Positions 10,326 through 26,639 of a DNA stretch of 64,000 bases are shown here, piece by piece. Below the pieces are notes generated by a model. It was not told the DNA's origin and made no database searches. It saw only the letters and a list, made by a program, of their open reading frames with translations. Position numbers and translations under genes: made by a program. The stretch comes from Shinella pollutisoli (GTDB lineage Bacteria > Pseudomonadota > Alphaproteobacteria > Rhizobiales > Rhizobiaceae): positions 1 through 64,000 of the forward strand of contig NZ_JANFDG010000015.1 in NCBI RefSeq assembly GCF_024609765.1, read 5' to 3'. How positions within the stretch are numbered: the stretch's first letter is position 1; every line of letters begins with the position of its first letter.

Positions 10326-11015
10326 CTACCACGCGACCGTTTTGTTGCGGTAATCGACGAAATGAACGCCGCGGCTGCCGGAGCGCGTGACCAGCGTTTC
10401 GACGATCCCGGCGGCGCTCGTCGCCACGTCGAGCGGGGCGGCGTCCCCGCCCATGTCGGTGCGCACCCATCCGGGCGAGAGGGCGAGATAGGTCCGTCCG
10501 TCGGGATGGCGGGCGGCGAAGCTCTTCATCAGCTGGTTGAGCGCGGCCCTGCTGGCACGATAGGCCTCCCATCCGCTGCCGGCATTGCCGGCGACGCTGC
10601 CCATGTTGGACGACATCACGGCGACGACGCCCGCCGGCGCGACCAGGCCATGGAGCGCTGCGACGACCCGTAACGGCGAGAGCGCGTTGGTGACCATGAC
10701 CTCGACGAAATCCTCCACGGGTACGGCCTCGATCGGGGCGGCAGGATCGTTGGCGATGCCGGCATTGACGAACAGGACATCGAGGACGCTGCCTAAGAGC
10801 GCGTTGCGCAGGCGGACGATCTCCTCCGGCGCGTTGATGTCCAGGGTCTCGATCCTGTGCACGCCCCTCTCGGCGAGGGCGGCACGGCCGCGCTCGTCGC
10901 GCACCGTGGCGATCACCTCGAAGCCGCGGGACAGAAAGGCCTCGGCGAGACCGAGGCCGAGGCCGCGCGAGGCTCCGACGACCAGCGCGACCTTGCCGGC
11001 GGGTTCCTCCGCCAT
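10326..11015 (-). CDS. SDR family oxidoreductase, atypical active site
   Basis: This 229-residue short-chain dehydrogenase shows the NAD(P)-binding VGASRGLGLG near residue 10, VNAGIA and an SSNMGS serine. The catalytic tetrad position reads YRASR instead of the usual YxxxK, so the lysine is replaced by arginine. The start at 11015 has a GGAGGA site about 11 bases upstream. It follows the semialdehyde dehydrogenase by four bases and is the last gene of the minus-strand hydantoinase/transaminase operon. It might reduce a semialdehyde or hydroxy-acid intermediate. The substrate is unknown. Confidence 0.8.
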   Translation of the reverse strand: MAEEPAGKVALVVGASRGLGLGLAEAFLSRGFEVIATVRDERGRAALAERGVHRIETLDINAPEEIVRLRNALLGSVLDVLFVNAGIANDPAAPIEAVPVEDFVEVMVTNALSPLRVVAALHGLVAPAGVVAVMSSNMGSVAGNAGSGWEAYRASRAALNQLMKSFAARHPDGRTYLALSPGWVRTDMGGDAAPLDVATSAAGIVETLVTRSGSRGVHFVDYRNKTVAW

Positions 11016-11019
11016 GGCG

Positions 11020-12474
11020 CTATGTCCTCCCGAGCCCGCCGAAGCAGGCATATTTCAGCTCGACATACTCCTCGATGCCGTATTTCGAGCCTTCGCGGCC
11101 GAAGCCGCTCTCCTTGATGCCGCCGAACGGGGCGAGCTCCGTCGAGATCAGCCCCTCGTTGATGCCGACCATGCCGAATTGCAGCTCTTCCAGCACGTGC
11201 CAGATCCGCCCGATGTCGCGCGCGTAGAAATAGGCCATCAGGCCGTAGCGCGTGTCGTTGGCAAGGCGGATGACCTCGGCCTCGTCGGAAAAGCGGAAGA
11301 CCGGCGCGATCGGGCCGAAGGCCTCCTCGCGCGCAAGCCGCATCGAGGCCTGCATGCCGGAAAGCACGGTCGGCTGAAACCAGGTGCCGCCGAGCGCATG
11401 ACGCCTGCCGCCGGTCTGGACATGCGCGCCTTGGCCGACGGCATCGCCGATCAGCTCGGCGACCTTGACCACCGCCTTCTCGTTTATCAGCGGCCCCTGA
11501 ACGATGTCGGGCGCTGCCCCGTCGCCGACCTTCAGGCGCGCGACCTCGTCCGTCAGCTTCGCCACGAACGCATCGTGGATACCGTCCTGCACGTAGATGC
11601 GGTTGGTGCACACGCAGGTCTGGCCGGAATTGCGGAACTTCGAGGCGATCGCGCCGGCGACGGCGAGGTCGAGGTCGGCATCGTCGAAGACGATGAAGGG
11701 CGCATTGCCGCCGAGTTCCAGCGACAGCTTCTTCAGCGTGTCGGCGCATTGCCGCATCAGGAGCTTGCCGACGGCGGTCGAGCCGGTGAAGGAGAGCTTG
11801 CGGATCACCGGATGCTCGCAGAGCAGGCGGCCGATGCCCGCGGCGTCCTTCGAGGGCACGACGTTGAGCACGCCGGCCGGAATGCCGGCCTGATCCGCCA
11901 GCGCCGCGAGCGCCAGCGCCGTCAGCGGCGTCTCCTCGGAGGGCTTGACGACCATGGTGCAGCCGGCGGCGAGTGCCGCGGCCGCCTTGCGGGTGATCAT
12001 CGCCAGCGGGAAATTCCAGGGCGTGATGGCGGCGCATACCCCGATCGGCTGTTTCAGCACGACGAAACGCCGGTCGCGCCCGGCCGACGGGATGACGTCG
12101 CCATAGACCCGCTTGGCCTCCTCGGAGAACCAGTCGACGAAGGATGCACCGAACGCCACCTCGCCGCGCGCCTCGTAGAGCGGCTTGCCCTGCTCGGCGG
12201 TGATCAGCCGGGCGAGGTCTTCCGTATGGGCGGTGATCAGGTCGAACCAGGCGCGCAGCAGCTTTGCCCGCTCCCTGGCCGGGCGCCCGCGCCAGTCCAC
12301 CTGCGCCCGCTCGGCGGCGCGGACCGCGGTCTCGACATCGGCGGCGGAGAGATCGGCAACCTCTGCCAGAACCGCGCCGGTGGCGGGGTTGCGCACCGCA
12401 AAGGTCGCGCCCGTCTCGGCCGCGACCCACGCGCCGTCGACGAAGGCGCGGTCGCGCAGGAGCGCGGGGGTCAT
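11020..12474 (-). CDS. gabD: NAD(P)-dependent succinate/glutarate semialdehyde dehydrogenase
   Basis: This 484-residue aldehyde dehydrogenase is of the GabD/DavD group. It has the motifs TPWNFPLAMITRK, FTGSTAVGK, LELGGNAPFIV with the catalytic Glu, and NSGQTCVCTNR with the catalytic Cys. It oxidises the semialdehyde made by the upstream transaminase to a dicarboxylate (succinate or glutarate). Its start overlaps the transaminase stop (ATGA, 12471-12474), so the two are translationally coupled. GabD and DavD cannot be told apart by eye. Confidence 0.9.
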   Translation of the reverse strand: MTPALLRDRAFVDGAWVAAETGATFAVRNPATGAVLAEVADLSAADVETAVRAAERAQVDWRGRPARERAKLLRAWFDLITAHTEDLARLITAEQGKPLYEARGEVAFGASFVDWFSEEAKRVYGDVIPSAGRDRRFVVLKQPIGVCAAITPWNFPLAMITRKAAAALAAGCTMVVKPSEETPLTALALAALADQAGIPAGVLNVVPSKDAAGIGRLLCEHPVIRKLSFTGSTAVGKLLMRQCADTLKKLSLELGGNAPFIVFDDADLDLAVAGAIASKFRNSGQTCVCTNRIYVQDGIHDAFVAKLTDEVARLKVGDGAAPDIVQGPLINEKAVVKVAELIGDAVGQGAHVQTGGRRHALGGTWFQPTVLSGMQASMRLAREEAFGPIAPVFRFSDEAEVIRLANDTRYGLMAYFYARDIGRIWHVLEELQFGMVGINEGLISTELAPFGGIKESGFGREGSKYGIEEYVELKYACFGGLGRT

Positions 12475-13775
12475 TGCCCGCTCTCCGCCTTTTCAAGCGC
12501 AGCGCGCAGGCTGTCCTTCAGGATGGCGATACCCTCGTCAAGGTGCTCGAAGGGGATGGTCAATGGCGTCAGCACGCGCACGACATTGCCATGCACGCCG
12601 CAGGAGAGCAGCAAGAGACCCTTTTCGGCGGCAGTGTGGGTGATGGCTTTCACCAGCTCCGGCCAGGGCTGGCGCGTCTCGCGGTCGCGCACGAATTCGA
12701 TCGCCACCATGGCGCCGAGGCTGCGCACCTCGCCGATGCAGGCGAATTCGTTGCCCTCCTGCCAATCCCTGAAGACGTCGGTGAGGCGGCGGCCGACCTC
12801 GTTTGCGCGGTCGATCAGTTTTTCGTCCTCGATGATGTCGAGAACCGCGAGCGAGGCCGCACAGGAGAGCGGATTGCCGGCGAAGGTGGAGCCGACGCCG
12901 CCCATGGGGATCTTGTCCATGATGCTGGCGCGGCCGGTGACGGCGGCGATCGGAAAGCCGCCGCCGAGCCCCTTGGCCATGGTGACGATATCGGCGGCAA
13001 CGCCGGCATGCTCCATCGCGAACATCTTTCCGGTGCGGGCAAAACCGGTCTGGATCTCGTCGGCGATCAGCAGGATGCCGTGTTCGTCGCAGATTTCGCG
13101 CAGCGTGCGCAGGAAGGTGACGGGCGCCGGATAAAAGCCGCCTTCGCCCTGCACCGGCTCGACAAAAATGCCGGCGACGCGGGTGGGATCGACCTCGGAG
13201 CGGAAGAAACGGTCGAGCGCCGTCAGCGACTCCTGCTCGGAGATGCCGTGATAGGCGATCGGGAACGGCAGGTGGAAGACGTCCGGCACCAGCGGGCCGA
13301 AGCCGGCCTTGTAAGGGGTGGTCTTGCCGGTCAGCGTCATCGCCATCAGCGTGCGGCCATGGAAACCGCCGGAAAAGGCGACGAAGGCCGAACGGCCGGT
13401 GGCGGCGCGCGCGATCTTGGCGGCGTTCTCGATGGCCTCAGCGCCGGTCGAGACGAGGAAGGTCTTCTTCGGGAAATCGCCGGGCACCAGCGCGTTCAGC
13501 TTCTCGCAGACCGCGACGTAATCGATATAGGGCGTGGTCTGGAACGAGGTATGGGTGACCTTGTCGAGCTGGCGGCGGACGCGCTCGACCACTCTGGGAT
13601 GGCGATGGCCGGTATTGTTGACGGCGATGCCGGCGGCGAAGTCGATATAGCGCTTGCCCTCGACATCCCACAATTCGGCATTCTCGGCCTTCTCGATATA
13701 GACGTCGAGATGCTTCGACAGGCCGGCCGGAATCGCGGCGCTGCGCCGTGCCGCGAAGGCAGCGTTCGTGGGCAT
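12471..13775 (-). CDS. gabT: 4-aminobutyrate (or 5-aminovalerate) aminotransferase
   Basis: This 434-residue class III, PLP-dependent transaminase of full length shows IDFAAGIAVNNTGHRHP, FSGGFHGRT, the DEIQTGFARTG aspartate, and the PLP lysine in TMAKGLGGGFP. It moves the terminal amino group of an omega-amino acid to 2-oxoglutarate, giving a semialdehyde for the coupled dehydrogenase. Its place after hyuAB suggests that the amino acid comes from ring opening of a lactam or similar cyclic amide, which is inference. Confidence 0.9.
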   Translation of the reverse strand: MPTNAAFAARRSAAIPAGLSKHLDVYIEKAENAELWDVEGKRYIDFAAGIAVNNTGHRHPRVVERVRRQLDKVTHTSFQTTPYIDYVAVCEKLNALVPGDFPKKTFLVSTGAEAIENAAKIARAATGRSAFVAFSGGFHGRTLMAMTLTGKTTPYKAGFGPLVPDVFHLPFPIAYHGISEQESLTALDRFFRSEVDPTRVAGIFVEPVQGEGGFYPAPVTFLRTLREICDEHGILLIADEIQTGFARTGKMFAMEHAGVAADIVTMAKGLGGGFPIAAVTGRASIMDKIPMGGVGSTFAGNPLSCAASLAVLDIIEDEKLIDRANEVGRRLTDVFRDWQEGNEFACIGEVRSLGAMVAIEFVRDRETRQPWPELVKAITHTAAEKGLLLLSCGVHGNVVRVLTPLTIPFEHLDEGIAILKDSLRAALEKAESGQ

Positions 13776-13867
13776 GGGTGTCTCCTCGGTTTGTTGTCAA
13801 GGCGCGGCCGGATTGCCGCGGCCTGGCGGTCGGTCCCGCTTCTTCCGGCGGTACCGGCCATCGGAAC

Positions 13868-14059
13868 TCAGTGGGCCGCCTCGGCGTGGCGGGCGTCCCG
13901 TTCGATCTTCCAGTCGACGCATTCCTGCGAGCAGTAGGTCTGCCCGTCATGCGTCTTCTTGCGGGCGGCGTCCTCGGCCGAGGCCTCGTAGATCAGCACG
14001 CCGCAATTGGCGCATTTCGTGTAGCTTTCGATGTAAAGCCCGTTCAGCGAAAATTTCAT
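13868..14059 (-). CDS. Small Cys-rich (zinc-ribbon-like) protein after hyuB, 63 aa
   Basis: This 63-residue protein has two cysteine pairs, CANC (about residue 16) and CSQEC (about residue 43), separated by a charged linker. The spacing suggests one treble-clef or TRASH/MYM-like zinc site. The protein starts six bases after the hyuB stop and precedes gabT by about 90 bases. There is no signal peptide, so it should be cytoplasmic. It may be an accessory subunit or metal chaperone of the HyuAB enzyme. The family is not known to me. The C-terminal tail is charged (KIERDARHAEAAH). Confidence 0.7.
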   Translation of the reverse strand: MKFSLNGLYIESYTKCANCGVLIYEASAEDAARKKTHDGQTYCSQECVDWKIERDARHAEAAH

Positions 14060-14064
14060 GGATC

Positions 14065-15762
14065 TCAGGCCTCCTGGTAGCCGTAATGTTTCAGGGCGGC
14101 CTCCTTCGAGACGTAGCCCTCGCGGACGTCCTCGGCGATCGCCGCCGGGTCGCGCCTGGCCGGATCGCCGTAGCCGCCGCCGCCGGGGGTGACGAGGCGC
14201 ACGCGGTCGCCGCGGCGGATCGAGACGTTGGAATAGCGGCTGGTCGAGGCCTTGCCGTAGGCCTCGCGCATCGTCTGCCAGGCGTTGTGGCCGGCCTTCA
14301 TGACGAGCGTCGCGCCGACGCCGCCCTCGGTGCCGCCGTTCAGCCCCCACGGGGCGAGCAGGTGGCGGTCGGTCATCTGCGAGCAGATGATCTCGTCGTT
14401 GAGGCAGAGCATCTGCTTGGTGTAGCCGACCCCGCCGCGATACTGTCCGGCGCCGCCGGCGTCGACGTTGAAGGCAAGGCTCTCGATGCGCCAGGGGAAA
14501 CGCGTCTCGTAGACCTCGACCGGCGTGATGCGGCAATTGCCGTTGATCGAGTCGACGCCGTCGTTGCCGTCGGCGAAGGCGCGCCCGCCCCAGCCGACCG
14601 CCTCCAGGTCGTAGCAGGCGAAGAACTCCTTGGTCTCGGCATCGACGCCGCCGAAGACGAAGTTGCAATGGGTCGCCCCTTCCGCCGCCATCACCCGGTC
14701 CGGGACGGCCGGCGCCATGGCGCCGAGGATCGTGCCGACGATGCGCGGATGGGTCTCGGTGTTGCCGCCGACCTCGGGGGCGGGAAAGTCGACATTGACG
14801 ATCGAGCCCGGCGGCGCCATCACGCGGATCGGCCGGAAGCAGCCGGAATTGCGCGGGATGGTCGGGTCGGTCATGTGCAGCACGGCGTTGTAGGCCGCGG
14901 AGGTCGCGACGCCGAGCGTGGCGTTGATCGGGCCGGAGGCCTGCGGCGAGGAGCCGTGGTAGTCGATGATGATCTCGCCGCCGCGCTTGTGCACCTCCAC
15001 GTTGATCGTGTAGGTGCGCTCCGCGTCGATGCCGTCGCTCTCGATCTTGTCGGAAAAGGCGTAGATGCCGTCGGGGATCGCCTCCAGCTCGGCGCGCATG
15101 CGCCGCTCCGAATAGAGCAGGAGGTCGTTGACGGTCTCCTTGATCTTCTCCTTGCCGTATTTCCTGTAGATCTGCGTCATCTGCTTCTCGCCGAGATCGA
15201 CGGCGGCGATGAGGGCGCGCAGGTCCCCGTAGTTGACGCGCGGCGTGCGCACGTTGGCGAGCAGCAGCTTCCACACCTCGACATTGTCCTTGCCGTTCTT
15301 CTTGATCTTCACCGGCGGGATGCGGATGCCCTCCTGGAAGATCTCCGTCGCCTCGCCGCAGAAGCCGCCGGGCGCCATGCCGCCGACCTCGGCGATATGG
15401 CCGATGGCGACGGCGAAGCCCATGATCTCGCCGTCGACGAAGATCGGCTTGAAGAAGGTGTGCTCGGGCGTGTGCAGGCCGCCGCGATAGGGGTCGTTGT
15501 GCAGGATGACGTCGCCTTCCTCGATCTCGCCGATCGGGATCTCCTTGAGGCACGACTTGATGAGCAGCGGCATGCCGCCGATCTGCGCCGGGCAATAGTC
15601 GGCGACGGCCATCATGTCGCCGTTCATGTCGGCGAGCCCGCAGGTGAAGTCGAGCGCCTCGTTGAAGATCGTCGAATAGGACGTCTTCATCAGCACGATC
15701 CCCATCTCCTTGCAGAGCGAGACCATGCTGGATTCCAGGATGTTCATCGTTACGAAGTCCAT
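14065..15762 (-). CDS. hyuB: Hydantoinase B/oxoprolinase family subunit
   Basis: This 565-residue protein is the B partner of ATP-dependent amidohydrolases (5-oxoprolinase, N-methylhydantoinase, caprolactamase). Visible signatures are the N-terminal DFVTMNILESSMVSLCKEMG, DVILHNDPYRGGLHTPEH, IGHIAEVGGMAPGG, and the glycine-rich C-terminus VTPGGGGYGDP. It follows hyuA by 11 bases. HyuB performs the amide opening that follows substrate phosphorylation by HyuA. The family does not fix the substrate. Confidence 0.93.
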   Translation of the reverse strand: MDFVTMNILESSMVSLCKEMGIVLMKTSYSTIFNEALDFTCGLADMNGDMMAVADYCPAQIGGMPLLIKSCLKEIPIGEIEEGDVILHNDPYRGGLHTPEHTFFKPIFVDGEIMGFAVAIGHIAEVGGMAPGGFCGEATEIFQEGIRIPPVKIKKNGKDNVEVWKLLLANVRTPRVNYGDLRALIAAVDLGEKQMTQIYRKYGKEKIKETVNDLLLYSERRMRAELEAIPDGIYAFSDKIESDGIDAERTYTINVEVHKRGGEIIIDYHGSSPQASGPINATLGVATSAAYNAVLHMTDPTIPRNSGCFRPIRVMAPPGSIVNVDFPAPEVGGNTETHPRIVGTILGAMAPAVPDRVMAAEGATHCNFVFGGVDAETKEFFACYDLEAVGWGGRAFADGNDGVDSINGNCRITPVEVYETRFPWRIESLAFNVDAGGAGQYRGGVGYTKQMLCLNDEIICSQMTDRHLLAPWGLNGGTEGGVGATLVMKAGHNAWQTMREAYGKASTSRYSNVSIRRGDRVRLVTPGGGGYGDPARRDPAAIAEDVREGYVSKEAALKHYGYQEA

Positions 15763-15773
15763 GGCGGTGCTCC

Positions 15774-17804
15774 TCAGGCGGAAATGATCAGGTTGCCGAG
15801 CCGGTCGACGCTGAGCGTCTGCTTCGGCCGCAGGATGGTGACGGAGGCGCTCTCCTCGACGATGGCCGGGCCGGCGATGGTCTGGCCCTGCCGCAGGCCG
15901 CCGCGGTCGTAGGTCGCGACCTCGTGCCAGCCGTCCTCGTAGCGCACCTTGCGGCTGCCCGAGGGCACGGGCGCGCCCTCGCCCCTTTCGAGCTCGCGCA
16001 TCTGCGGCTTCTCCGAGACCGCGACGGCGACGACCTTGATATTGACCGTCTCGATGGTCTCGCCGGGGATCGAGAAGCCGAAGCGGTTCTGGTGCTCCTC
16101 GTGGAAGCGCTCCCAGAGGTCGGCGATCGTCACGTCGTTGAAGTCGTTGCCGGGGAAGCTCAGCTCCAGCTCGTGGTTCTGGCCGAAGTAGCGCGCCTCG
16201 ATCGAGCGGTAGATCTCGACCTTCTGGCGGTAGCCCTGCGAGACGAGCTCGGCGATCGCGCCGTCCACCAGCTCCGTCATCGCCGCCGTGGCGCGCGCAC
16301 CGTCGAAGAACTTCGAGGTCTGCTGCACCGTGCGGTGCCGGTCGACGCGCGCGTCGGTCATGATGAAGCCGAAGGCGGAGAACTGGCCGGGATAGTTCGG
16401 CACGATGCCCTGCGGGATGCCGGAAATATCCATGAGGTCGCAGATATGCACCGGGCCGGCGCCGCCCGAGGCGACGAGGGTGAAGTCGCGCGGGTCGAGG
16501 CCGCGCTGCAGGAGCACGGCGCGCAGCGCCCCCAGCATGTTGTTGTTGGCGATCTGCACCATGGCGAAGGCGGCTGCGTCGACTTCGAGGCCGAGCTGGT
16601 CGGCGACCGTCTTCACCGCGCGGTGCGCCGCCGCCGCGTCGAGCTTCATCTTGCCGCCGAGGAAATAGTCGGGATTGATGCGGCCGAGCACGACGTTGGC
16701 GTCCGTCACGGTGGCGTTCTCGCCGCCGCGGCCGTAGCAGGCGGGACCGGGTGCCGCCCCCGCCGACTGCGGGCCCATGCGCAGCATGCCGCCCTTGTCG
16801 ATCCAGGCGATCGAACCGCCGCCCGCGCCGATCGTGTGGATGTCGATCATCGGGATCTGGATCGGCAGGCCCCATTCGATCTCGAAGCTCGTCGTCACGT
16901 GCTCCATGCCGTCGACGACGGTCGAGCAGTCGGTCGAGGTGCCGCCCATGTCGAAGGTGACGAGGTTCCTGATGCCGGTGAGCTCAGAAAGCACGCGCGT
17001 CGCCACGACCGCGCCGGTCGGGCCGGAGAGCGTCATCTGCACCGGCGCGTCGGCCGCGCCCTTCAGCGTGGATTCGCCGCCGTTCGACTTGATCACGCCG
17101 ATCTTGTCACCGATGCCGATCGCGGCGAGCCGCTTGTGCATGCGGTTGAAGCTGTCGGAGACGATCGGCTTCAGATAGGCGTCGGCGATCGTCGTCGAGG
17201 CGCGGTCGTATTCCTTCCACTTCGGCAGCACGTCGTAGGAGATCGAGATCGGCATGCCGGGCAGCTCCTCGGCGAGGATGTCGCGGATGCGCTGCTCGTG
17301 GCGCGGGTCGATATAGGAGAAGAGCGTGCAGACCGCGATCGCCTCGATCGTGCCGTCGGCCCTGATCCGGCCCGCCAGCTCGCGCACCGCGGCCTCGTCG
17401 AGCGGCTCGACCACCTCGCCCTTGGCGCTCAGGCGCTCGGCGATCTCGTGGGTGTCGGCGCGCTTGACGAGCGGCTTGGTCTTGATCCAGGTGATGTCGT
17501 AGTGGCTGCGGCGGTCGCCGCGCTGGATGAAGGGAACGTCGCGGAAGCCGGCGGTGGTGACATAGGCCACCTTGGCGCCGCGCCGGGTGAGCAGCGCGTT
17601 GGTGGCGATCGTCGTGCCGAGGCGCATCTTGTCGACGGCGGCGACGTCCTCGACCTGCGAAAGGCCTTGCAGCACGCCCTCGATCGGCTCGGCGGGCGTC
17701 GTCAGGTTCTTCCAGTTCTCGATGGTGCCGGTCGCGGCATCGTAGAAAACGAAATCGGTGAACGTCCCCCCGATGTCGATGCCGATGATTTTGCTGTCAG
17801 GCAT
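15774..17804 (-). CDS. hyuA: Hydantoinase A/oxoprolinase family subunit
   Basis: This 676-residue protein is the ATP-binding A subunit. It has the actin/ASKHA phosphate loop IGIDIGGTFTDFVFYD at the N-terminus, LVTFDMGGTSTDCS near residue 285, and GAGGGSIAWID just after. The C-terminal domain carries FPGNDFNDVTIADLWERFHEEH, typical of the family. It phosphorylates the amide oxygen so that HyuB can open the ring. It lies 27 bases after the GntR gene in the same operon. Confidence 0.94.
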   Translation of the reverse strand: MPDSKIIGIDIGGTFTDFVFYDAATGTIENWKNLTTPAEPIEGVLQGLSQVEDVAAVDKMRLGTTIATNALLTRRGAKVAYVTTAGFRDVPFIQRGDRRSHYDITWIKTKPLVKRADTHEIAERLSAKGEVVEPLDEAAVRELAGRIRADGTIEAIAVCTLFSYIDPRHEQRIRDILAEELPGMPISISYDVLPKWKEYDRASTTIADAYLKPIVSDSFNRMHKRLAAIGIGDKIGVIKSNGGESTLKGAADAPVQMTLSGPTGAVVATRVLSELTGIRNLVTFDMGGTSTDCSTVVDGMEHVTTSFEIEWGLPIQIPMIDIHTIGAGGGSIAWIDKGGMLRMGPQSAGAAPGPACYGRGGENATVTDANVVLGRINPDYFLGGKMKLDAAAAHRAVKTVADQLGLEVDAAAFAMVQIANNNMLGALRAVLLQRGLDPRDFTLVASGGAGPVHICDLMDISGIPQGIVPNYPGQFSAFGFIMTDARVDRHRTVQQTSKFFDGARATAAMTELVDGAIAELVSQGYRQKVEIYRSIEARYFGQNHELELSFPGNDFNDVTIADLWERFHEEHQNRFGFSIPGETIETVNIKVVAVAVSEKPQMRELERGEGAPVPSGSRKVRYEDGWHEVATYDRGGLRQGQTIAGPAIVEESASVTILRPKQTLSVDRLGNLIISA

Positions 17805-17831
17805 TGTTCCCTCTTTTCTTGAATGGTCCAG

Positions 17832-18548
17832 TCAGGACGAGCGGGGCTTTTCCCGTTCGTAAGCTTCGAGCAGGTGGCGCCAGGAATCGCGGATATGGTC
17901 GGTGATCGCGTCCATCGCCTTGGCCGGGTCGCGGCTGCGCAGCGCCTCCACCACCGGCCAGTGGTCGACGGCGGCGGCCATCAGGCTCTCGAACTGCCGC
18001 TCGGCCATGGTGATCAGCATCTGCACCTCAGCTTGGATGTTGGTGAAGGCGTGCAGCGTCTGGCGGTTCTTCGACAGCCGGCAGATCTCGAGGTGGAAGG
18101 AAAGGTCGTTCTCGACGACGCCGATCTCGTCATTGGCATTGGCGGCGGCGACCATGGCCTCGACGACGCCGGCGATGCGGTCGATGTCTGCGTCCGACAT
18201 CTGCGGCAGCGCCTGCTCGACGGCGAAGCGCTCGACGACGACGCGGAAGGAGAAGATCTCGTCGATGTCGCTTAGCAGGAAGGTCCGCACGAAGGTTCCC
18301 TTGCGCGGCACGGCGACGAGCAGCCCGCGCTCCTCCAGCCGGCGCACGGCCTCGCGGATCGGGTTGCGGCTGATGCCGAGCTGGCGGGCGAGCTCCGCCT
18401 CGTTGATGCGCTGGCCAGGCTGCAGCCGGCCGAAGATCAGCTCCCGGACCAGGAAGGTCGAGACCTGGTCGGAGAGCATGCGGTTGTCGATGATTGGCGA
18501 CGGTTCCTCGGCGGCGGAGAGAGGGTTGAAGAGAAGATGGTTAGCCAT
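17832..18548 (-). CDS. GntR family (FCD type) transcriptional regulator
   Basis: This 238-residue regulator has an N-terminal winged helix (about residues 28-85, with LQPGQRINEAELARQLGISRNPIREAVRRLEERGL) and a C-terminal FCD ligand domain with its metal-binding histidines. Its start overlaps the LivM stop by eight bases, placing it in the middle of the operon it probably controls. Its likely site is the inverted repeat at 22602-22614 between the two divergent arms of the locus. The effector is probably the transported compound or an organic acid. Confidence 0.9.
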   Translation of the reverse strand: MANHLLFNPLSAAEEPSPIIDNRMLSDQVSTFLVRELIFGRLQPGQRINEAELARQLGISRNPIREAVRRLEERGLLVAVPRKGTFVRTFLLSDIDEIFSFRVVVERFAVEQALPQMSDADIDRIAGVVEAMVAAANANDEIGVVENDLSFHLEICRLSKNRQTLHAFTNIQAEVQMLITMAERQFESLMAAAVDHWPVVEALRSRDPAKAMDAITDHIRDSWRHLLEAYEREKPRSS

Positions 18549-19587
18549 GGACGAGCCCTTTCTCGCGATGCGTGTGCTGCGGCAGGCCTATTTCCCGTCC
18601 TGCCATGATTCCGTTCTTGCGGAAGATCAGTATCAACAGCATGAACGCCGCGATGATAAGCTCCTGCGTGCCGGCCGGGATCGACCATTGCCCTCCGCCC
18701 ACCGAAATTCCCGCCTCCAGCCGGCGGAAGAGATCGACGATCGTCGTGACGACGACGACGCCGGCGACCGCGCCGGCGAGGCTGCCCATGCCGCCGACGA
18801 TCAGCATGGCAAGTGCCAGGAAGGTGAAGCTCAGGAAGAAGTTGTTGATCGACACCGTGCCGAGAAAATGCGCCTGCAGCACGCCGCCGAGGCCGACGAC
18901 GAAGCCGGACAGCGTGAAGGCGATGAGCCGCGACCAGTAGAGCGAGATGCCGGAGGCGGCGGCCGCCACCTCGTCCTCCCGCGTCGCGCGGATCGCAAGG
19001 CCGAAGGCGGAGGTCTGGTAGAGCCAGGCGACGACGATCGCCAGTAAGGCGCAGCCGAAGGCGAGCCAGGCCGTCACATAGGTCGGCAGACCGACGATCG
19101 AGGCAGAGCCCATCGTCACGCTGTCCCAGTTGGAATAGACGACGTTCAGGATGAACAGCACGGCGAGCGTCGAGATCGAGGCGGCAAGGCCGGTGAGGCG
19201 CATGAGGACGAGGCCGGTGAGGAAGGCGGCACCGCCGGCGAGCAGGATGGAGACGAGGGCCGACGGCAACAACGGGATGCTCTGGTCGCGCAGGAAGGGC
19301 GGCAGACCCGACATGGTGATCGGCTTCAGCATCTCGCAGCAGGTCTGCCACGCCGAGGCATAGGCGGCGATCGCCATGAAGGTGGCGTGCCCGAAGGAGA
19401 TGATGCCGGAATTGCCGACGAAGATGTAGAGCCCGACGACGATGACGATGCTGATCAGCATCTCGATCACCGTGCGCTGCAGCGACAGGCCGCCGAACTG
19501 GTCGGTGAGCGCCACGATCACGGCGAGCGGCACGACGATCGCCAGCACCGGGAACCAGAAGTGGAAAACGGCGTCGCTCTTCATCAT
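18541..19587 (-). CDS. livM: Branched-chain amino acid-type ABC transporter permease (LivM)
   Basis: This 348-residue inner-membrane permease has about nine to ten hydrophobic segments and the LivM EAA-type loop region RATREDEVAAAASGISL. Its start overlaps the LivH stop (ATGA). With LivH, LivG, the divergent LivF and the binding protein it forms a complete HAAT-family importer. Its operon partners suggest the cargo is the amide or lactam substrate, or a derived amino acid, rather than leucine. Confidence 0.92.
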   Translation of the reverse strand: MMKSDAVFHFWFPVLAIVVPLAVIVALTDQFGGLSLQRTVIEMLISIVIVVGLYIFVGNSGIISFGHATFMAIAAYASAWQTCCEMLKPITMSGLPPFLRDQSIPLLPSALVSILLAGGAAFLTGLVLMRLTGLAASISTLAVLFILNVVYSNWDSVTMGSASIVGLPTYVTAWLAFGCALLAIVVAWLYQTSAFGLAIRATREDEVAAAASGISLYWSRLIAFTLSGFVVGLGGVLQAHFLGTVSINNFFLSFTFLALAMLIVGGMGSLAGAVAGVVVVTTIVDLFRRLEAGISVGGGQWSIPAGTQELIIAAFMLLILIFRKNGIMAGREIGLPQHTHREKGLVHG

Positions 19588-20498
19588 ACGCGCTCCTTGG
19601 CGGCACTGGTGACGATCAGGCCCTGCGGGCGGACGAGCAGGATCAGGATGACGAGGGTGAAGACGCCGGCATCCCGGAACGGCCTGAGATCCGGCGGCAG
19701 GTAGGTCTGCAGGAGCACGCTCGCGACGCCGACGAGGAAGCCGCCGAGGGCCGCGCCCGGCAGCGAGCCCATGCCGCCGATGACGGTGGCGAAGAAGGCA
19801 TAGACGACGGGCATCAGCCCCATGCGCAGATCGAGCGTGCCGGTCTGGATGGTCAGCAGCAGCGACACGGCGCCGCCGAGCAGGCCGGAGATGGCGAAGG
19901 CGAGCGCGATCACCCGGTTCGCCGGCATGCCGAGCAGGCGGGCCATCTGGAAGTTCTCCGCCGCCGCCCGCATCTGGATGCCGAGCGGCGTCTTCTTGAG
20001 GAAGAGCACGAGCGCGACGAGCAGGCCGGCGGCGACGACCATGGTCAGCAGCTGGACGCCGGGGATGCGCACGCCGGCGATCTCCACCGCGCTTGCGAGC
20101 CCCTGGCCGATGCCGACCGATTTCGGTCGGCCGGTATGGACCAGCATGACGAGGTTCTGCAGGAAATAGCTGACGGCGAAGGAGGAGATGAGCAGCGTCG
20201 ACGGATTGGAGTTGCGCAGCGGCCGGAAGGCGACGCGCTCGGTGGCGAGCGCCAGCACGACGACGACCAGGAGCACGCCGCCGATCATCAGCGCGGCGGG
20301 CAGCGCGCCGAGGAGGAGGGGCGGGGTGACGCTCGCCGTCGGCACGACCAGCGCATAGGCGCCGATGGTGATGTAGTCGGCCTGGGCGAAGTTGATGAGC
20401 CGCATGACGCCGAAGACGAGGCCGATCGCCAGCGCCACCAGGGCATAGAGGCTTCCGAGGGCGATGGCGTCGACGAGAACCTGGACGATGTTGGCCAT
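19584..20498 (-). CDS. livH: Branched-chain amino acid-type ABC transporter permease (LivH)
   Basis: This 304-residue integral membrane protein begins VQVLVDAIALGSLYALVALAIGLVFGVMRLINFAQADY (quoted in part; the characteristic piece is GVMRLINFAQ). About eight hydrophobic helices are visible, and the loop GIQMRAAAENFQMARLLGM contacts the ATPase. The start at 20498 fits the family. It lies nine bases after the LivG stop, so the two genes are co-transcribed. Confidence 0.92.
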   Translation of the reverse strand: MANIVQVLVDAIALGSLYALVALAIGLVFGVMRLINFAQADYITIGAYALVVPTASVTPPLLLGALPAALMIGGVLLVVVVLALATERVAFRPLRNSNPSTLLISSFAVSYFLQNLVMLVHTGRPKSVGIGQGLASAVEIAGVRIPGVQLLTMVVAAGLLVALVLFLKKTPLGIQMRAAAENFQMARLLGMPANRVIALAFAISGLLGGAVSLLLTIQTGTLDLRMGLMPVVYAFFATVIGGMGSLPGAALGGFLVGVASVLLQTYLPPDLRPFRDAGVFTLVILILLVRPQGLIVTSAAKERV

Positions 20499-20506
20499 GG
20501 CGGGTC

Positions 20507-21262
20507 CTAGATCGCGAGCGTGCGGTCCGACGCCTTCTCGCCGAGATAGGCGCGGCGGACGACGGGGTTCATCTGGATGTCGGCGGGCGAGCCTTCGGCA
20601 AGGCTCTGGCCGCCGTCGAGGACATGGATGCGCTCGCACACGCCCATGATCACCTTCATGTTGTGCTCGATCAGCAGCACGCCGCAGCCGAAGCGCTCGG
20701 GCAACCGTGCGATCAGCTCCATCAGCGCCTCGCATTCGGCGTCGTTCATGCCCGAGGCGGGCTCGTCGAGCAGCGCGAAGGACGGCTCGAGCGCGAGCGC
20801 GCGGGCGATGCTGACGCGCCGCTCGTCGCCGTAGGAGAGGCTGTCGCAGCGCAGGTCCGCCTTGCCGGCAAGCCCCATCCAGTCGAGGATGCCGAGCGCG
20901 CGCTCGCGGGCCGGGCGGCGCGCGAGGCCGGCGCCGATCGCGGCGACCGAGAGGTTCTGCTCGACCGTCATCGCCCGGAACAGCCGGGCCGCCTGGAAGC
21001 TGCGCGCCACGCCGGCCTGGGCGATCTTGCGGGCCGAAAGGCGCGAGACGTCGATGTCGTCGAGGCGGATCGCGCCGCTCGTCGGCCGCTGGAAGCCGCT
21101 CAGCACGTTGACCATGGTGGTCTTGCCGGCACCGTTCGGCCCGATGAGGCCGAGGATCTCGCCGCGCTTCAACGAAAGGTCGACGCCGCTCAGCGCGCGG
21201 ATGCCGCCGAAGGCGACCGCGACGCCGCGGGCTTCGAGCCTTTCTTTCGAGGAACGTGACAT
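20507..21262 (-). CDS. livG: Branched-chain amino acid-type ABC transporter ATP-binding protein (LivG)
   Basis: This 251-residue ATPase has the Walker A GPNGAGKTT near residue 42, the LSYGDERRVSIARAL signature (a variant of LSGGQ), and the Walker B FALLDEPASGMND, followed by the switch histidine in LIEHNMKVIM. It sits between the binding-protein gene (about 90 bases upstream) and livH. It pairs with LivF, encoded on the opposite strand at 22716. Confidence 0.94.
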   Translation of the reverse strand: MSRSSKERLEARGVAVAFGGIRALSGVDLSLKRGEILGLIGPNGAGKTTMVNVLSGFQRPTSGAIRLDDIDVSRLSARKIAQAGVARSFQAARLFRAMTVEQNLSVAAIGAGLARRPARERALGILDWMGLAGKADLRCDSLSYGDERRVSIARALALEPSFALLDEPASGMNDAECEALMELIARLPERFGCGVLLIEHNMKVIMGVCERIHVLDGGQSLAEGSPADIQMNPVVRRAYLGEKASDRTLAI

Positions 21263-21353
21263 GGCCAGGGAACCTGTGCGTCAGCGCAGTTGAACAGCTC
21301 GGGCGATTGCCCCGCCGGATGGCGTCAGGCGCCGTCGGCGGGGAACGGGGTCG

Positions 21354-22550
21354 TTACTGACCGACGCGGAACAGGAGCTTCATGTCCGGCTTGAACGAGT
21401 TGCGGTAGACCTCGACGGCGCGGAAGGAGTCGTTCTCGACCTTCATGATCAGCCAGGGCCGGTCGACCTGGATGTGCAACTGATCGGTGAACGAGGTCGG
21501 GCCGGCGGTGAAGGGCTGGTCCTTGAAGCCGTTCATCACGGCGACCACGGCCTCGGACTCCGTCGTCTTGGCTTGTTCGACCGCATAGGCCCACTGCTCG
21601 ATCAGGCTGTAGCCGAGCACCGAATAGGAGGAGACCGGCGGCTCGCCGTAGCGCGCCTTGTGGCTCTCCAGGAAGGCGTTCATTTCCGGCCGCGGATCGT
21701 CGCCGTAGAGCGACATGAAGGCGGGCAGGTAGAAGTCCTTGAGGCCCGGCACGGCGTTCAGCCAGTAATTGTCGACCATCGCCGTGCTGGCGAGGATCGG
21801 CAGGTCGATGCCGGCGGCGCGGAGCTGGCGCACGGCGGACGCGCCGCCCGGCGTGACGGAGCAGATGAAGACGGCGTCCGGCTGGGTGGCCAGCCCCTTC
21901 AGGCGGGTGATCTGCGAGGCGATCGACGGGTCGTCGTTCTTGAACGTGTCGTTGCCGAGGATCGATTCCTCGCCGCCGCCGGCCGCCCAGCCGGCGCGGA
22001 AGCCGGCGCAGGCCGACTTGTTGTATTCGATCAGCAGGTCTTCCAGCACGTAGACCGTCTTGAGGTTCATCTTCTTCTGGGCGTATTCGGCAATGGCGAT
22101 GCCTTCCGACTGCGCCGCGCTGTTGGCGGTGAAGGCGAGCGGGCCGACGCCCTGGACGCCCATCTTCGGGTCGGCGGCGCACAGGCTGAAGGCGATCTTG
22201 CCCGCCTGCTTGGCGGCAAGCGCCGACGGCGCGCCGAAATCGTAGTCGCAGGAGACCACGAGCATGTCGACGCCGCCGTCGACGAGCTGGGCGCCGACGG
22301 TGGCGGCGCGCGCCTGCTCCGTCTTGGTGTCCATCACCGAATATTCGATCTGACGGCCGAGCAGGCCGCCGGCCTTGTTGATCTCCTCGATCTTCATCAC
22401 CGCCGCCTTGAAGGGGGCGCTGTCGTAGTTGGAAAGCCAGCCGGATTCGGCGATGGCGAAGCCGATCTTGATCGGGTCCTCGGCGCGGGCGCTGGTGACA
22501 GGCGACAGAAGAGCGATTGCGGCCGAGGCGGCCACAGCAACAGATTTCAT
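21354..22550 (-). CDS. ABC transporter substrate-binding protein (HAAT/Peripla_BP_6)
   Basis: This 398-residue periplasmic receptor starts with a signal peptide (MKSVAVAASAAIALL, cleavage near SARA). The mature part begins EDPIKIGFAIAESGW, followed by the ALLGRQIE-type segment typical of LivK/AmiC/UrtA-like receptors. It is the first gene of the long minus-strand operon. The start at 22550 is chosen from the signal peptide, ignoring a 16-residue upstream extension. The ligand is unknown, and a cyclic amide or small amide fits the context. Confidence 0.9.
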   Translation of the reverse strand: MKSVAVAASAAIALLSPVTSARAEDPIKIGFAIAESGWLSNYDSAPFKAAVMKIEEINKAGGLLGRQIEYSVMDTKTEQARAATVGAQLVDGGVDMLVVSCDYDFGAPSALAAKQAGKIAFSLCAADPKMGVQGVGPLAFTANSAAQSEGIAIAEYAQKKMNLKTVYVLEDLLIEYNKSACAGFRAGWAAGGGEESILGNDTFKNDDPSIASQITRLKGLATQPDAVFICSVTPGGASAVRQLRAAGIDLPILASTAMVDNYWLNAVPGLKDFYLPAFMSLYGDDPRPEMNAFLESHKARYGEPPVSSYSVLGYSLIEQWAYAVEQAKTTESEAVVAVMNGFKDQPFTAGPTSFTDQLHIQVDRPWLIMKVENDSFRAVEVYRNSFKPDMKLLFRVGQ

Positions 22551-22601
22551 CGTCGTTCCCCTTTGGCGATGATCGTTGCACCGCCGTGTTTTTTGCACAT
22601 A

Positions 22602-22614
22602 GTCCTCTGTGGAC
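22602..22614. promoter_or_regulatory. Inverted repeat in the divergent promoter region of the locus
   Basis: GTCC-TCTGT-GGAC is a 4-5-4 inverted repeat in an AT-rich 165-bp gap between the divergent binding-protein and livF genes. Position and size suit the FCD-type GntR regulator encoded in the operon. T-rich stretches at 22589-22594 and 22634-22642 flank it. Confidence 0.4.
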
Positions 22615-22715
22615 AGGAGACAGAATGCGTACTATTTTTTCTTTGTCAACGGCAAAAAAGCGGCGCGCCCCTCCCGATCCGGCAGGGCGAAAGAGCCGCG
22701 CTGAAGGGGAACGAT

Positions 22716-23444
22716 ATGCTGGAAATCCGCGGCGTCAGCGCCGGCTATGGCCGACTTGAGGCCTTGAAATCGGTCGACCTCACGGTCGCGAAGGGCGAGG
22801 TGGTCTTCGTCGTCGGCCCGAACGGTGCCGGCAAGTCGACGCTGCTGAAGACGGTCTCGGGCCTGATGGCGCCGTCCGCCGGCACGATCGCCTTCAACGG
22901 CGAGACGATCGCCGGCGAGCCGCCGGAGCGGCTGTGCTGCCGCGGCCTTGCGCTGGTGCCGGAGGGCCGCAGCATCTTCCGCACGCTGACGGTTGAGGAG
23001 AACCTTTCCGTCGCCGCGATGATCCGCAGCGACAGGGACGCAGCGGCCGCCGACCGCGAGCGGGTGCTGGATCTCTTCCCGATCCTCAGGAGCCGCTATC
23101 ACGGCGTCGCCGGGCATCTCTCCGGCGGCGAGCAGCAGCAGCTCGCCATCGCCCGGGCGATCCTGCAGCGGCCGCTCATGATGATGATCGACGAGCCCTC
23201 GCTCGGCCTTGCGCCCCTCGTCATCGACCAGGTCTATGAGAGCCTGCGCCAGCTCAATGCCGACGGGCTGACGCTGCTCGTCGTCGAGCAATCCACCGCC
23301 CGCATCCTCGACCTCGCCTCGCGCATCTATGTGCTGCGCAACGGCCATGTGGCGCTTGAGGGTGCGGCGTGCGACCTTGCCGACGGCCATGCGCTGGAGG
23401 AGGCCTATTTCGGCTACGGCGCCGGCCGGGCGGCCCAGGCCTGA
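22716..23444 (+). CDS. livF: Branched-chain amino acid-type ABC transporter ATP-binding protein (LivF)
   Basis: This 242-residue ATPase has the Walker A GPNGAGKST near residue 35, the signature LSGGEQQQLAIARA, and the Walker B MMMIDEPSLGLAP. It completes the transporter encoded on the other strand. A ribosome-binding site (aagggga) precedes the ATG at 22716. It is followed after 16 bases by the L-2-hydroxyglutarate oxidase gene, so the two are co-transcribed. Confidence 0.93.
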   Translation: MLEIRGVSAGYGRLEALKSVDLTVAKGEVVFVVGPNGAGKSTLLKTVSGLMAPSAGTIAFNGETIAGEPPERLCCRGLALVPEGRSIFRTLTVEENLSVAAMIRSDRDAAAADRERVLDLFPILRSRYHGVAGHLSGGEQQQLAIARAILQRPLMMMIDEPSLGLAPLVIDQVYESLRQLNADGLTLLVVEQSTARILDLASRIYVLRNGHVALEGAACDLADGHALEEAYFGYGAGRAAQA

Positions 23445-23460
23445 TCGGGAAAGAAAGCAG

Positions 23461-24654
23461 ATGATCCACGACCATTGCGTCATCGGCGGCGGCATCGTCG
23501 GGCTGGCGACGGCCATGCGCCTCCTCGAGGACCACCCCGGCAGCAGCCTCGTCCTGATCGAGAAGGAGGACGGGCTCGGCCGGCACCAGACCGGCCACAA
23601 CAGCGGCGTCATCCATGCCGGCATCTATTATCCGCCGGGCAGCCTGAAGGCCGAGCTCTGCCGCAAGGGGGCCGCCGCCACCAAGGAATTCTGCGCCGAG
23701 AACGGCATCCGCTTCGAGGTCTGCGGCAAGCTGCTCGTCGCCACCTCCGAAATCGAGATGGAGCGGATGGAGGCGCTCTACGCGCGCTCGAAGGAGAACA
23801 CGATCGAGGTCCACCGCCTCGGCGAGGAGGAGCTGAAGGAGCGCGAGCCGAACATCAGCGGGCGCGGCGCCCTCCTCGTCCCGGCGACCGGCATCGTCGA
23901 CTATGCCGAGGTCTGCCGGGCGATGGGCCGGCGCATCGCGGCACTCGGCGGCGAGATCAGGCTTTCGACCCGCGTCACCGCCATCCGCGAGAGCGTCGAC
24001 GCCGTCGATGTCGCCGCGGCAGGCGAAAGCTGGCGGGCGAGGAAGCTCGTCGCCTGCGGCGGGCTCCAGTCGGACCGGCTGGCGGTGCTCGCCGGCCTTG
24101 CGATCGACCATCGCATCGTCCCCTTCCGCGGCGAATATTACCGCCTGCCGGCAGCGAAGAACGACATCGTCCGCCATCTGATCTATCCGGTCCCCGACCC
24201 GGCGCTGCCCTTCCTCGGCGTCCACCTGACGCGGATGATCGACGGCGGCGTGACGGTCGGGCCGAACGCGGTGATCGGCTTTGCCCGCGAGGGCTATCCG
24301 CGCCTTTCCGTCAATCTCGCCGACATGGCCGACTATGCGCTGTTTCCCGGCTTCTGGAAGACCGTGCTCGCCCATCGCAAATCCGCGGCGACGGAGATGC
24401 GCAACTCGCTGTGGAAGCCGGGCTACCTGCAGGAATGCCGGAAATACTGCCCGAGCCTGGAGCTCGCCGACCTCCTGCCGCACGAGGCAGGCATCCGCGC
24501 CCAGGCCATGCGCCGCGACGGCACGCTCATCCATGACTTCCTGTTCGCGCAGACCGACCGAATGCTGCATGTCTGCAACGCCCCTTCGCCCGCGGCTACC
24601 TCGGCGATCCCGATCGCCGAGATGATCGTCGGCCGGCTGAAGGCGACGCCCTGA
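23461..24654 (+). CDS. lhgO: L-2-hydroxyglutarate oxidase/dehydrogenase
   Basis: This 397-residue FAD-dependent oxidase of the DAO superfamily has the dinucleotide-binding CVIGGGIVGLATA at the N-terminus, GRHQTGHNSGVIHAGIYYPPGSLKA, characteristic of LhgO/YgaF, and a C-terminal FAD-contact region. It converts L-2-hydroxyglutarate to 2-oxoglutarate and passes electrons to the quinone pool. In Pseudomonas it completes glutarate catabolism downstream of 5-aminovalerate, which matches the transaminase and dehydrogenase in the opposite operon. No CsiD glutarate hydroxylase is present in this window. Confidence 0.9.
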   Translation: MIHDHCVIGGGIVGLATAMRLLEDHPGSSLVLIEKEDGLGRHQTGHNSGVIHAGIYYPPGSLKAELCRKGAAATKEFCAENGIRFEVCGKLLVATSEIEMERMEALYARSKENTIEVHRLGEEELKEREPNISGRGALLVPATGIVDYAEVCRAMGRRIAALGGEIRLSTRVTAIRESVDAVDVAAAGESWRARKLVACGGLQSDRLAVLAGLAIDHRIVPFRGEYYRLPAAKNDIVRHLIYPVPDPALPFLGVHLTRMIDGGVTVGPNAVIGFAREGYPRLSVNLADMADYALFPGFWKTVLAHRKSAATEMRNSLWKPGYLQECRKYCPSLELADLLPHEAGIRAQAMRRDGTLIHDFLFAQTDRMLHVCNAPSPAATSAIPIAEMIVGRLKATP

Positions 24655-25552: not shown

Positions 25553-26207
25553 CGCGTCTTCCGGGCCATGAGCTTTGTATGCAGGGCGTCCAAGGTAGCC
25601 GAGCCCGGGTCGTGTCGCAACGCAAACGGCGAAGCGGGCCGGGCTCGGTTATACCCCCCGGCATCGCCGTCCGTACTTGCCTCTTGAAGATTCCGATCCG
25701 GAGTGCCGCGGTCCTTCGCGAGGAGAGAGCCGTCGTGATTCCTTTTCGGAGAAAGGTTGTCGACGCGGATTTATGGAGCGTGCCAAACGCGACGCGGCAA
25801 TGGATACAAACTGATCGCGGTTGCCACCGTGCCGCAGGGCACGCGCTATATCGCCGGTGGTGAGCTCGGCGCGCCGCTCTACGATCGAGATATCGCGCGG
25901 CATCCGCGTCGGAGACAAGCCGTCTGTCGAGACCGCTTCGCCCCGCTTCGGGAAAAGGAGCCGGCCCGTCGGTCCAGACCCTTTACGGCTGCTCGCTTCG
26001 ATCCGGGATAAACATCCAAGCGATCGCCGCCGCTTTAACTCGCCGGAGACGGACCGAGGCAAGCGCGACCATGGCCGGGTTCGTTCGCGCTGGTATTCAA
26101 AGTTTGTCTGCCCCCATCAATCGCAATGCTGTGTAAGGTTTTCCCAATCGGACCGGAGGGTTGGCCGCTGCGGCGAGCGCCGGTTCCGTCGTGCCTTGGG
26201 GAAAACC
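25553..26207. other. Gene-poor, decayed stretch
   Basis: No convincing gene is visible over about 650 bases. Open frames are short and lack ribosome-binding sites, and composition is more mixed than in neighbouring DNA. It probably consists of degraded gene remnants plus the promoter of the carrier-protein gene at 26208. Confidence 0.5.
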
Positions 26208-26639
26208 ATGGATCTGGAAAAGATCAGGACACTTCTCGATTTCGTCGGCCGTTCGCGTGTGTCGGAACTGACGGTCAGCGAGGCGGGCACGACCGTCGTC
26301 ATCCGGAATCCCGCGCGGGCGGCAGCCGCCGGAGGCGAGCCTGCAGCGGCCGGCTCGCAGGCTTCCGCCACGGCGTCGTCGGGCGAAGAAGGCGGGCAGG
26401 CGGACGACCGGATCGTGCGTTCGGTCAGTGCCGGCGTCCTTCATAGGTCCGCGAGCCCCGGTGCCGCACCCCTGGTTGCCGTCGGCGATGCCGTCGAGCC
26501 GGGACAGACGCTCTGCATCGTCGAGGCGATGAAGGTCTTCACGACGGTGAGCGCGCCCTTCGGCGGCACCGTCAGGCGCATCTTCTTCGAGGACGGGCAG
26601 GACGTCGGCTTCGGCGATCCGCTGGTGGAGGTCGTCTGA
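26208..26639 (+). CDS. Biotin carboxyl carrier protein (AccB-like)
   Basis: This 143-residue carrier has an N-terminal helix-hairpin resembling AccB (MDLEKIRTLLDFVGRSRVSEL), an Ala/Gly/Gln-rich linker (about residues 45-70), and a C-terminal biotinyl domain with the biotin-attachment motif VEAMKV. Biotin would be attached at the Lys. Its stop overlaps the start of the biotin carboxylase gene by one base (TGATG), so the two are translationally coupled. Confidence 0.9.
   Translation: MDLEKIRTLLDFVGRSRVSELTVSEAGTTVVIRNPARAAAAGGEPAAAGSQASATASSGEEGGQADDRIVRSVSAGVLHRSASPGAAPLVAVGDAVEPGQTLCIVEAMKVFTTVSAPFGGTVRRIFFEDGQDVGFGDPLVEVV

Follow-up and report, generated by a model that had tools for sequence, protein, structure and literature searches.

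A HyuAB-type hydrolase clade with a small Cys4 partner in a putative cyclic-amide catabolic locus of Shinella pollutisoli

Hydantoinase/oxoprolinase (Hyd) enzymes are described as consisting of two subunits, without orthologues of the gamma subunit of acetophenone carboxylase (Apc), and the gamma subunit is said to be absent from any Hyd complex (Weidenweber et al., 2017, PMC5214803; here and below according to the accessible part of that paper). The gamma subunits described there contain a Cys4 zinc finger (Cys22, Cys25, Cys75, and Cys78 in Apc-gamma) and bind the beta subunit, and the hydrolases are about 150 residues shorter than the beta subunit of acetone carboxylase (Acx) (PMC5214803). 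The function of Apc-gamma is called unknown in the accessible sections of a second paper, which assigns D41, H99, D102, and H124 as metal ligands of the caprolactamase subunit CapB and describes a hydrophobic pocket with a vicinal disulfide (PMC8453981). Another assayed lactamase, OplAB, has mere trace activity on gamma-butyrolactam, as far as the accessible text goes (PMC11033972). Here, we describe a locus of Shinella pollutisoli (genome of 5.22 Mb, 99.6% complete) in which a HyuA/HyuB pair of this type is accompanied by a 63-amino-acid Cys4 protein, for which we coin the name HyuZ. The analyzed window comprises positions 1-64000 of contig 7.

HyuZ has no Pfam or NCBIfam match (E up to 0.001) and shows the cysteine pattern CxxCG ... 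CSxxC, whose four cysteines suggest zinc binding. Residues Y9, Y13, K15, C16, N18, C19, G20, L22, C43, S44, C47, and W50 do not vary across the 53 places compared, which represent 47 distinct sequences because some genomes are present in two collections; one locus added later, outside these places, has G instead of S44 (L113). The co-occurrence of HyuZ with one HyuB clade was observed directly and in both directions. Among 397 genomes sampled from the order, HyuZ matches were obtained in seven, own genome included; the match in G288 was discarded as a chance match within another open reading frame (ORF), without the cysteine pattern, and in the remaining six HyuZ always adjoins HyuAB. The reverse test in the same genomes (HyuB clade at E up to 1e-120, best three candidates scored per genome) retrieved the clade in six, identical to the six with HyuZ. 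With the own genome set aside, the odds of five in 396 coinciding by chance are about 1 in 8e10, by an arithmetic that ignores relatedness. A phylum-wide sample contained HyuZ in one of 398 genomes, the own one, and searching about 85,000 species genomes gave at least 39 loci, a lower bound since the single pattern, built from 11 sequences, is narrow. In 38 of these 39, the same cluster encodes, no more than about 6.4 kb away, a HyuB that shares at least 58% identity with that of the window, accompanied by its HyuA (truncated at the contig end in L059 and L063); the 39th is a 4.5-kb contig. Apart from this short contig, the gene order is hyuA-hyuB-hyuZ in 14 loci, fused in nine, another adjacent order in two, and, in 13, hyuZ ahead of the importer, which hyuAB follows. 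In Methylobacterium and relatives (L013, L014, L025, L041-L044, and similar), another, distantly related HyuAB (about 40% and 32%) precedes GntR, HyuZ, and importer, with the clade HyuAB behind.

HyuZ also occurs fused to HyuB. In 11 distinct loci (L015, L045, L049, L052, L056, L057, L059, L061, L062, L063, L113) the Cys4 domain forms the N-terminus of HyuB in a single open frame, and in an Agrobacterium vitis plasmid record the fusion is annotated as one protein of 640 amino acids. Because HyuZ is the N-terminal domain of HyuB in these relatives, the free protein probably docks on HyuB. The fused sequences split into two groups on the HyuB tree, and fusion or separation has therefore occurred more than once, as read from the sequences. 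A distant HyuB-type protein (L073:1-1782) carries an Acetone_carb_G-like Cys4 domain at its C-terminus; a zinc-finger fusion seems to have arisen in another branch of the superfamily too.

The HyuB proteins that travel with HyuZ are monophyletic in our tree (54 sequences) and differ from their relatives at the active site. The alignment comprised these 54 (at least 50% identity, between-collection duplicates included), CapB, and 17 other HyuB of the same loci, 13 of which are one paralogue type. The clade keeps the D, H, and H of CapB D41, H99, and H124 (D38, H97, and H122), while the position of CapB D102 is occupied by E100 in 54 of 54 clade members versus D in 17 of 17 others. In the pocket, CapB L38 is replaced by E35 and CapB M339 by H338, each in 54 of 54, and the vicinal disulfide C410-C411 of caprolactamase is missing in the clade alignment. 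The equivalents of I368 and V386 disagree between pairwise (N367, D385) and multiple alignment (F368, C383) and were not used. Mapped in this way, the clade pocket looks more polar than that of CapB, which suggests a polar substrate and speaks against bare lactams, caprolactam among them. A plain caprolactamase or valerolactamase, the type of relative that the original prediction had drawn on, is not supported, given this pocket, the lost disulfide, and scores of 525.8 (HyuA) and 309.8 bits (HyuB) against caprolactamase equivalogs with cut-offs of 1000 (NF050156, NF050157). Among solved structures, N-methylhydantoinase matches better by sequence than caprolactamase (443 versus 381 bits for HyuA, 331 versus 245 for HyuB), and Apc and Acx chains score lower than the hydrolases. 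With 676 and 565 amino acids, both subunits also have the length of the Hyd branch; length and score thus group HyuAB with the Hyd enzymes, yet with a small Cys4 partner. From family membership, HyuAB is predicted to hydrolyze cyclic amides.

Eleven genes are read on the minus strand from 22550 down to 10326, in reverse order of Table 1, with overlaps or gaps of at most 92 bases between neighbors; LivF and LhgO form a divergent pair on the plus strand. All genes named in the original prediction were recovered by ORF placement, family scans, and, for LivF, orthologues, and the identities that it had given to HyuA/HyuB, transaminase, dehydrogenase, and LhgO agree with the family matches. Its count of eleven minus-strand genes is right provided that the ORF of HyuZ, which it left unnamed, is included; its two divergent genes are present, with the start of LhgO moved from 23329 to 23461; and its full HAAT-type transporter is complete by gene content, i.e., one binding protein, two permeases, and two ATPases.

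Table 1. Genes of the putative cyclic-amide locus in the window (positions count from its first base).
Feature	Position	Strand	Remarks
SDR (short-chain dehydrogenase/reductase) oxidoreductase, optional member	10326..11015	-	adh_short match; start may be 11051
Succinate-semialdehyde-type aldehyde dehydrogenase (SSADH)	11020..12474	-	TIGR01780 694.6 bits vs cut-off 646 (subfamily model)
GabT-type omega-amino-acid transaminase	12471..13775	-	TIGR00700 (GABA, i.e., 4-aminobutyrate, transaminase) 546 bits vs cut-off 507
HyuZ, 63-aa (amino acid) Cys4 zinc-finger-like protein	13868..14059	-	start codon 5 bases past hyuB stop; name coined here
HyuB, metal-dependent subunit, 565 aa	14065..15762	-	PF02538 (Hydantoinase_B) E 3.5e-172; metal-ligand positions D38, H97, E100, H122
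HyuA, ATP-binding subunit, 676 aa	15774..17804	-	PF05378, PF01968, PF19278 (strong Hydantoinase_A match); motifs DIGGTFTDF, DMGGTSTD, GAAPGP
GntR/FCD regulator	17832..18548	-	PF07729, PF00392
LivM-type permease	18541..19587	-	PF02653
LivH-type permease	19584..20498	-	PF02653
LivG-type ATPase	20507..21262	-	NF008449 E 4e-69, under cut-off
HAAT-type substrate-binding protein	21354..22550	-	all models under cut-off; PDB relatives include 4gnr
LivF-type ATPase, divergent	22716..23444	+	placed by ORF and cassette orthologues (L021: annotated ABC transporter ATP-binding protein), without family scan
LhgO, L-2-hydroxyglutarate oxidase	23461..24654	+	NF008726 598.5 bits vs cut-off 299

The transaminase and dehydrogenase of the locus are a second set: a gabT-gabD pair lies elsewhere in the genome, each member 58% identical to its counterpart here. 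Narrower models for the two enzymes (NF008415, NF005692) score under their cut-offs. A further GabT homologue (C8:85962-87095) and a further SSADH homologue (C23:50040-51479) of the same genome each contain one in-frame stop. Within the window, 1.5 kb past LhgO, a biotin carboxyl carrier-like gene (under cut-off) and a biotin carboxylase gene follow on the plus strand (26163-28000).

Importer, GntR, HyuAB, HyuZ, transaminase, and dehydrogenase are kept at 81-96% identity in the 11 closest loci (Shinella, Sinorhizobium, Mesorhizobium, and a metagenome-assembled genome (MAG) of Rhizobium; more than one strain of S. sumterensis is included), where HyuA and HyuB share at least 90% identity throughout and the SDR occurs in five of the 11. 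This conserved gene set supports the proposal of the original prediction that a cyclic amide is opened and its product transaminated and oxidized as a semialdehyde. In Sulfitobacter (L022) and a Rhizobiaceae MAG (L036), HyuAB are 75-84% identical, with transaminase, dehydrogenase, and FAD enzyme at only 30-43%; the L022 transaminase passes a different family (NF004767), and both dehydrogenases fall under the SSADH cut-off. The same steps seem to be filled by different enzymes in these relatives, which supports the sequence of ring opening, transamination, and aldehyde oxidation. In Shinella kummerowiae, a pair that passes as caprolactamase (L033:14419-18272; CapB 1101.8 and CapA 1235 bits versus cut-offs of 1000) begins 1.4 kb past the cassette dehydrogenase, and its CapB is 71% identical to that of Pseudomonas jessenii (392/554). 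The divergent gene in between matches FeaR, which we take to be a regulator of the AraC type, under cut-off (136 of 199 bits). The lactam reading of the original prediction is partly supported, by this neighboring CapBA and by the conserved enzyme steps; its specific substrates and its glutarate branch are not. PxpA adjoins the HyuAB clade in L037, and PxpA and biotin-carboxylase genes lie beside the same clade in Methylobacterium aquaticum. The own genome has three PxpA genes, two of them near other copies of HyuA, at distances of up to about 3 and 6 kb (C21:26930-31669, C3:39421-47395).

On balance, we favor a cyclic-amide hydrolase that depends on ATP, has a dedicated third component, and feeds an omega-amino acid to transaminase and dehydrogenase. 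The dedicated HAAT importer would take in the cyclic amide, HyuA (ASKHA-type, ATP-using) would activate the ring amide, and HyuB would open the ring at its metal site, with HyuZ, as the third component of this distinct HyuAB clade, docking on HyuB. The ring-opening product would be an omega-amino acid, which the GabT-type transaminase would convert to a semialdehyde and the SSADH-type dehydrogenase to a dicarboxylate. As to the substrate, a bare lactam is possible, and a polar or hydroxylated lactam would fit better. Several points weigh against this reading. The predicted model of a fused protein is poor (mean predicted local distance difference test score, pLDDT, of 66.8); support for the HyuB clade in the tree is only 0.72; and scoring the best three candidates per genome in the reverse test could have missed clade members. 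In 13 of the 39 loci, HyuZ is flanked by GntR (or a second HyuAB) on one side and by the binding protein on the other, at a distance of about 5 to 6.4 kb from the clade HyuAB, so that HyuZ may be linked to regulation or transport. Transaminases and dehydrogenases next to HyuAB vary over the wider clade, and substrates may therefore differ across it. Moreover, a pairwise alignment shows Glu at the E35 position in N-methylhydantoinase as well, so that this residue speaks for a polar substrate generally, beyond this clade alone.

The gene set would also suit a bare gamma-lactam, a substrate considered in the original prediction, with 2-pyrrolidinone opened to 4-aminobutyrate and converted to succinate by GabT and SSADH, LhgO and the SDR as bystanders, and HyuZ as an accessory. 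Such a route is possible, though unlikely: both enzymes exceed the cut-offs of TIGR00700 and TIGR01780, PxpA-type neighbors occur in L037 and Methylobacterium, and LhgO is widespread without the locus, but the pocket mapped on CapB is polar rather than hydrophobic, a separate gabT-gabD pair is already present, and the trace activity of OplAB on gamma-butyrolactam (PMC11033972) does not favor it. One relative (L035) keeps a GabT 71% identical, and the two genes behind it (glutamylputrescine-synthetase model and amine-oxidase type, far under cut-off) argue weakly for a GABA route. All core enzymes, LhgO included, would be used for a hydroxylated lactam, e.g., 3-hydroxy-2-piperidone, via 5-amino-2-hydroxyvalerate, 2-hydroxyglutarate semialdehyde, and 2-hydroxyglutarate, which LhgO would oxidize to 2-oxoglutarate without need for CsiD. 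CsiD, correctly noted as absent from the locus in the original prediction, has no match in the whole genome either, while an E. coli positive control was detected; glutarate therefore cannot supply LhgO via the known route, and the proposed glutarate branch ending in LhgO has no support, also since LhgO is common in the family without the locus. LhgO itself is single-copy (E up to 1e-30) and lies beside LivF in 11 of the 11 closest loci (78-86% identity; only partly visible in eight, where the locus ends), the L036 cluster contains an LhgO-like gene (35%) and, just behind HyuAB (L036:13212-16034), a gene of the YdiJ family (D-2-hydroxyglutarate dehydrogenase-like), and the pocket residues E35 and H338 are invariant. 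We nevertheless consider a hydroxylated lactam rather unlikely. The L036 YdiJ-like and L022 LhgO-like genes stay under their cut-offs (792 versus 1350 and 202 versus 299 bits), and degradation literature on the intermediates, searched by name and judged from titles and abstract openings, yielded none. LhgO (E up to 1e-90) occurs in 51 of 247 genomes of the family and the HyuB clade in five, only two of which have such an LhgO; five LhgO neighborhoods from other genomes (L106-L110) contain no clade HyuAB, and LhgO was not found in L034, L035, L037, L038, and L053, loci that mostly end near its position. LhgO may be a passenger at the locus, and its role in the pathway is putative. In L109 (8892-11013), SDR (64%) and LhgO (79%) are divergent neighbors without clade HyuAB, so that the two may travel as a pair on their own.

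A polar cyclic ureide or a 5-oxoproline-like substrate, in which case the transaminase would act on an amino acid further down the route, would be in line with the polar pocket and with N-methylhydantoinase as the closest solved structure by sequence, ahead of caprolactamase and sharing the Glu at E35. The scan of twelve locus genes, which did not extend to the remainder of the genome, revealed no carbamoylase, and the three PxpA genes could handle 5-oxoproline. Moreover, 5-oxoproline would yield glutamate, for which no omega-transaminase is needed, and a substrate of this type seems quite unlikely to us. It is very improbable that the enzyme carboxylates a small polar ketone in an ATP-dependent reaction, with HyuZ in the place that the gamma subunit has in acetone and acetophenone carboxylases. 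HyuZ and HyuB do co-travel, and published gamma subunits have the Cys4 zinc finger while the Hyd branch is described without them (PMC5214803). However, HyuB is, with 565 residues, about 150 below Acx-beta, as described for hydrolases (PMC5214803), both subunits score lower to Apc and Acx chains than to hydrolases, and none of 11 HyuZ members has a listed match to the carboxylase gamma family PF08882 at E up to 10, a range in which HMMER filters drop most weak matches. Returning to the cyclic-amide hydrolase, its boldest version is a three-subunit enzyme in which a zinc-finger subunit would be obligatory, for the first time in the hydantoinase branch, and which would open a hydroxylated lactam (e.g., 3-hydroxy-2-piperidone) whose product reaches 2-oxoglutarate via 2-hydroxyglutarate without CsiD. 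As a whole, we regard this version as improbable.

HyuZ is the most interesting feature of the locus. A hydrolase clade that has a small zinc-finger-like protein as a partner of its own, free or fused depending on the species, offers a simpler enzyme in which to test what such a partner does. The clade is now annotated collectively as hydantoinase/oxoprolinase, and its distinct active site perhaps accommodates a new substrate. Possible uses lie in lactam degradation and in biocatalysis of nylon monomers.

Compared with known systems, the locus shares with CapAB of P. jessenii and OplAB of P. putida both subunit families, the three ATP-site motifs, and three of four metal ligands. It differs from them in a HyuB only 31% identical to CapB (171/547), in Glu instead of Asp102, in the replacement of the hydrophobic pocket and the vicinal disulfide, and in the additional zinc-finger-like component. 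N-methylhydantoinase (PDB 7hk5 group), the best solved-structure match, has the Glu at E35 in common, but is a single chain of 1288 residues with Asp where the clade has E100. PxpABC-type 5-oxoproline genes and lamA/lamB-type lactam utilization genes, the latter presumably of fungal role, share the lactam theme and belong to unrelated enzyme families. Our literature search for a third hydantoinase component of this kind, which covered few subscription journals, gave only PMC8453981, PMC5214803, and PMC8360864. The carboxylases Apc and Acx, members of the same superfamily, likewise possess a small third subunit, which contains a Cys4 zinc finger and binds beta (PMC5214803); their gamma subunits belong to the PF08882 family, whereas HyuZ lacks a match to it, and homology of HyuZ to Apc-gamma is not established. 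In the published description, as far as accessible, the Hyd branch comprises two genes only, with no gamma-like zinc-finger partner (PMC5214803); with a Cys4 partner linked to HyuB in 38 of 39 loci and fused to it in 11, the clade described here departs from that.

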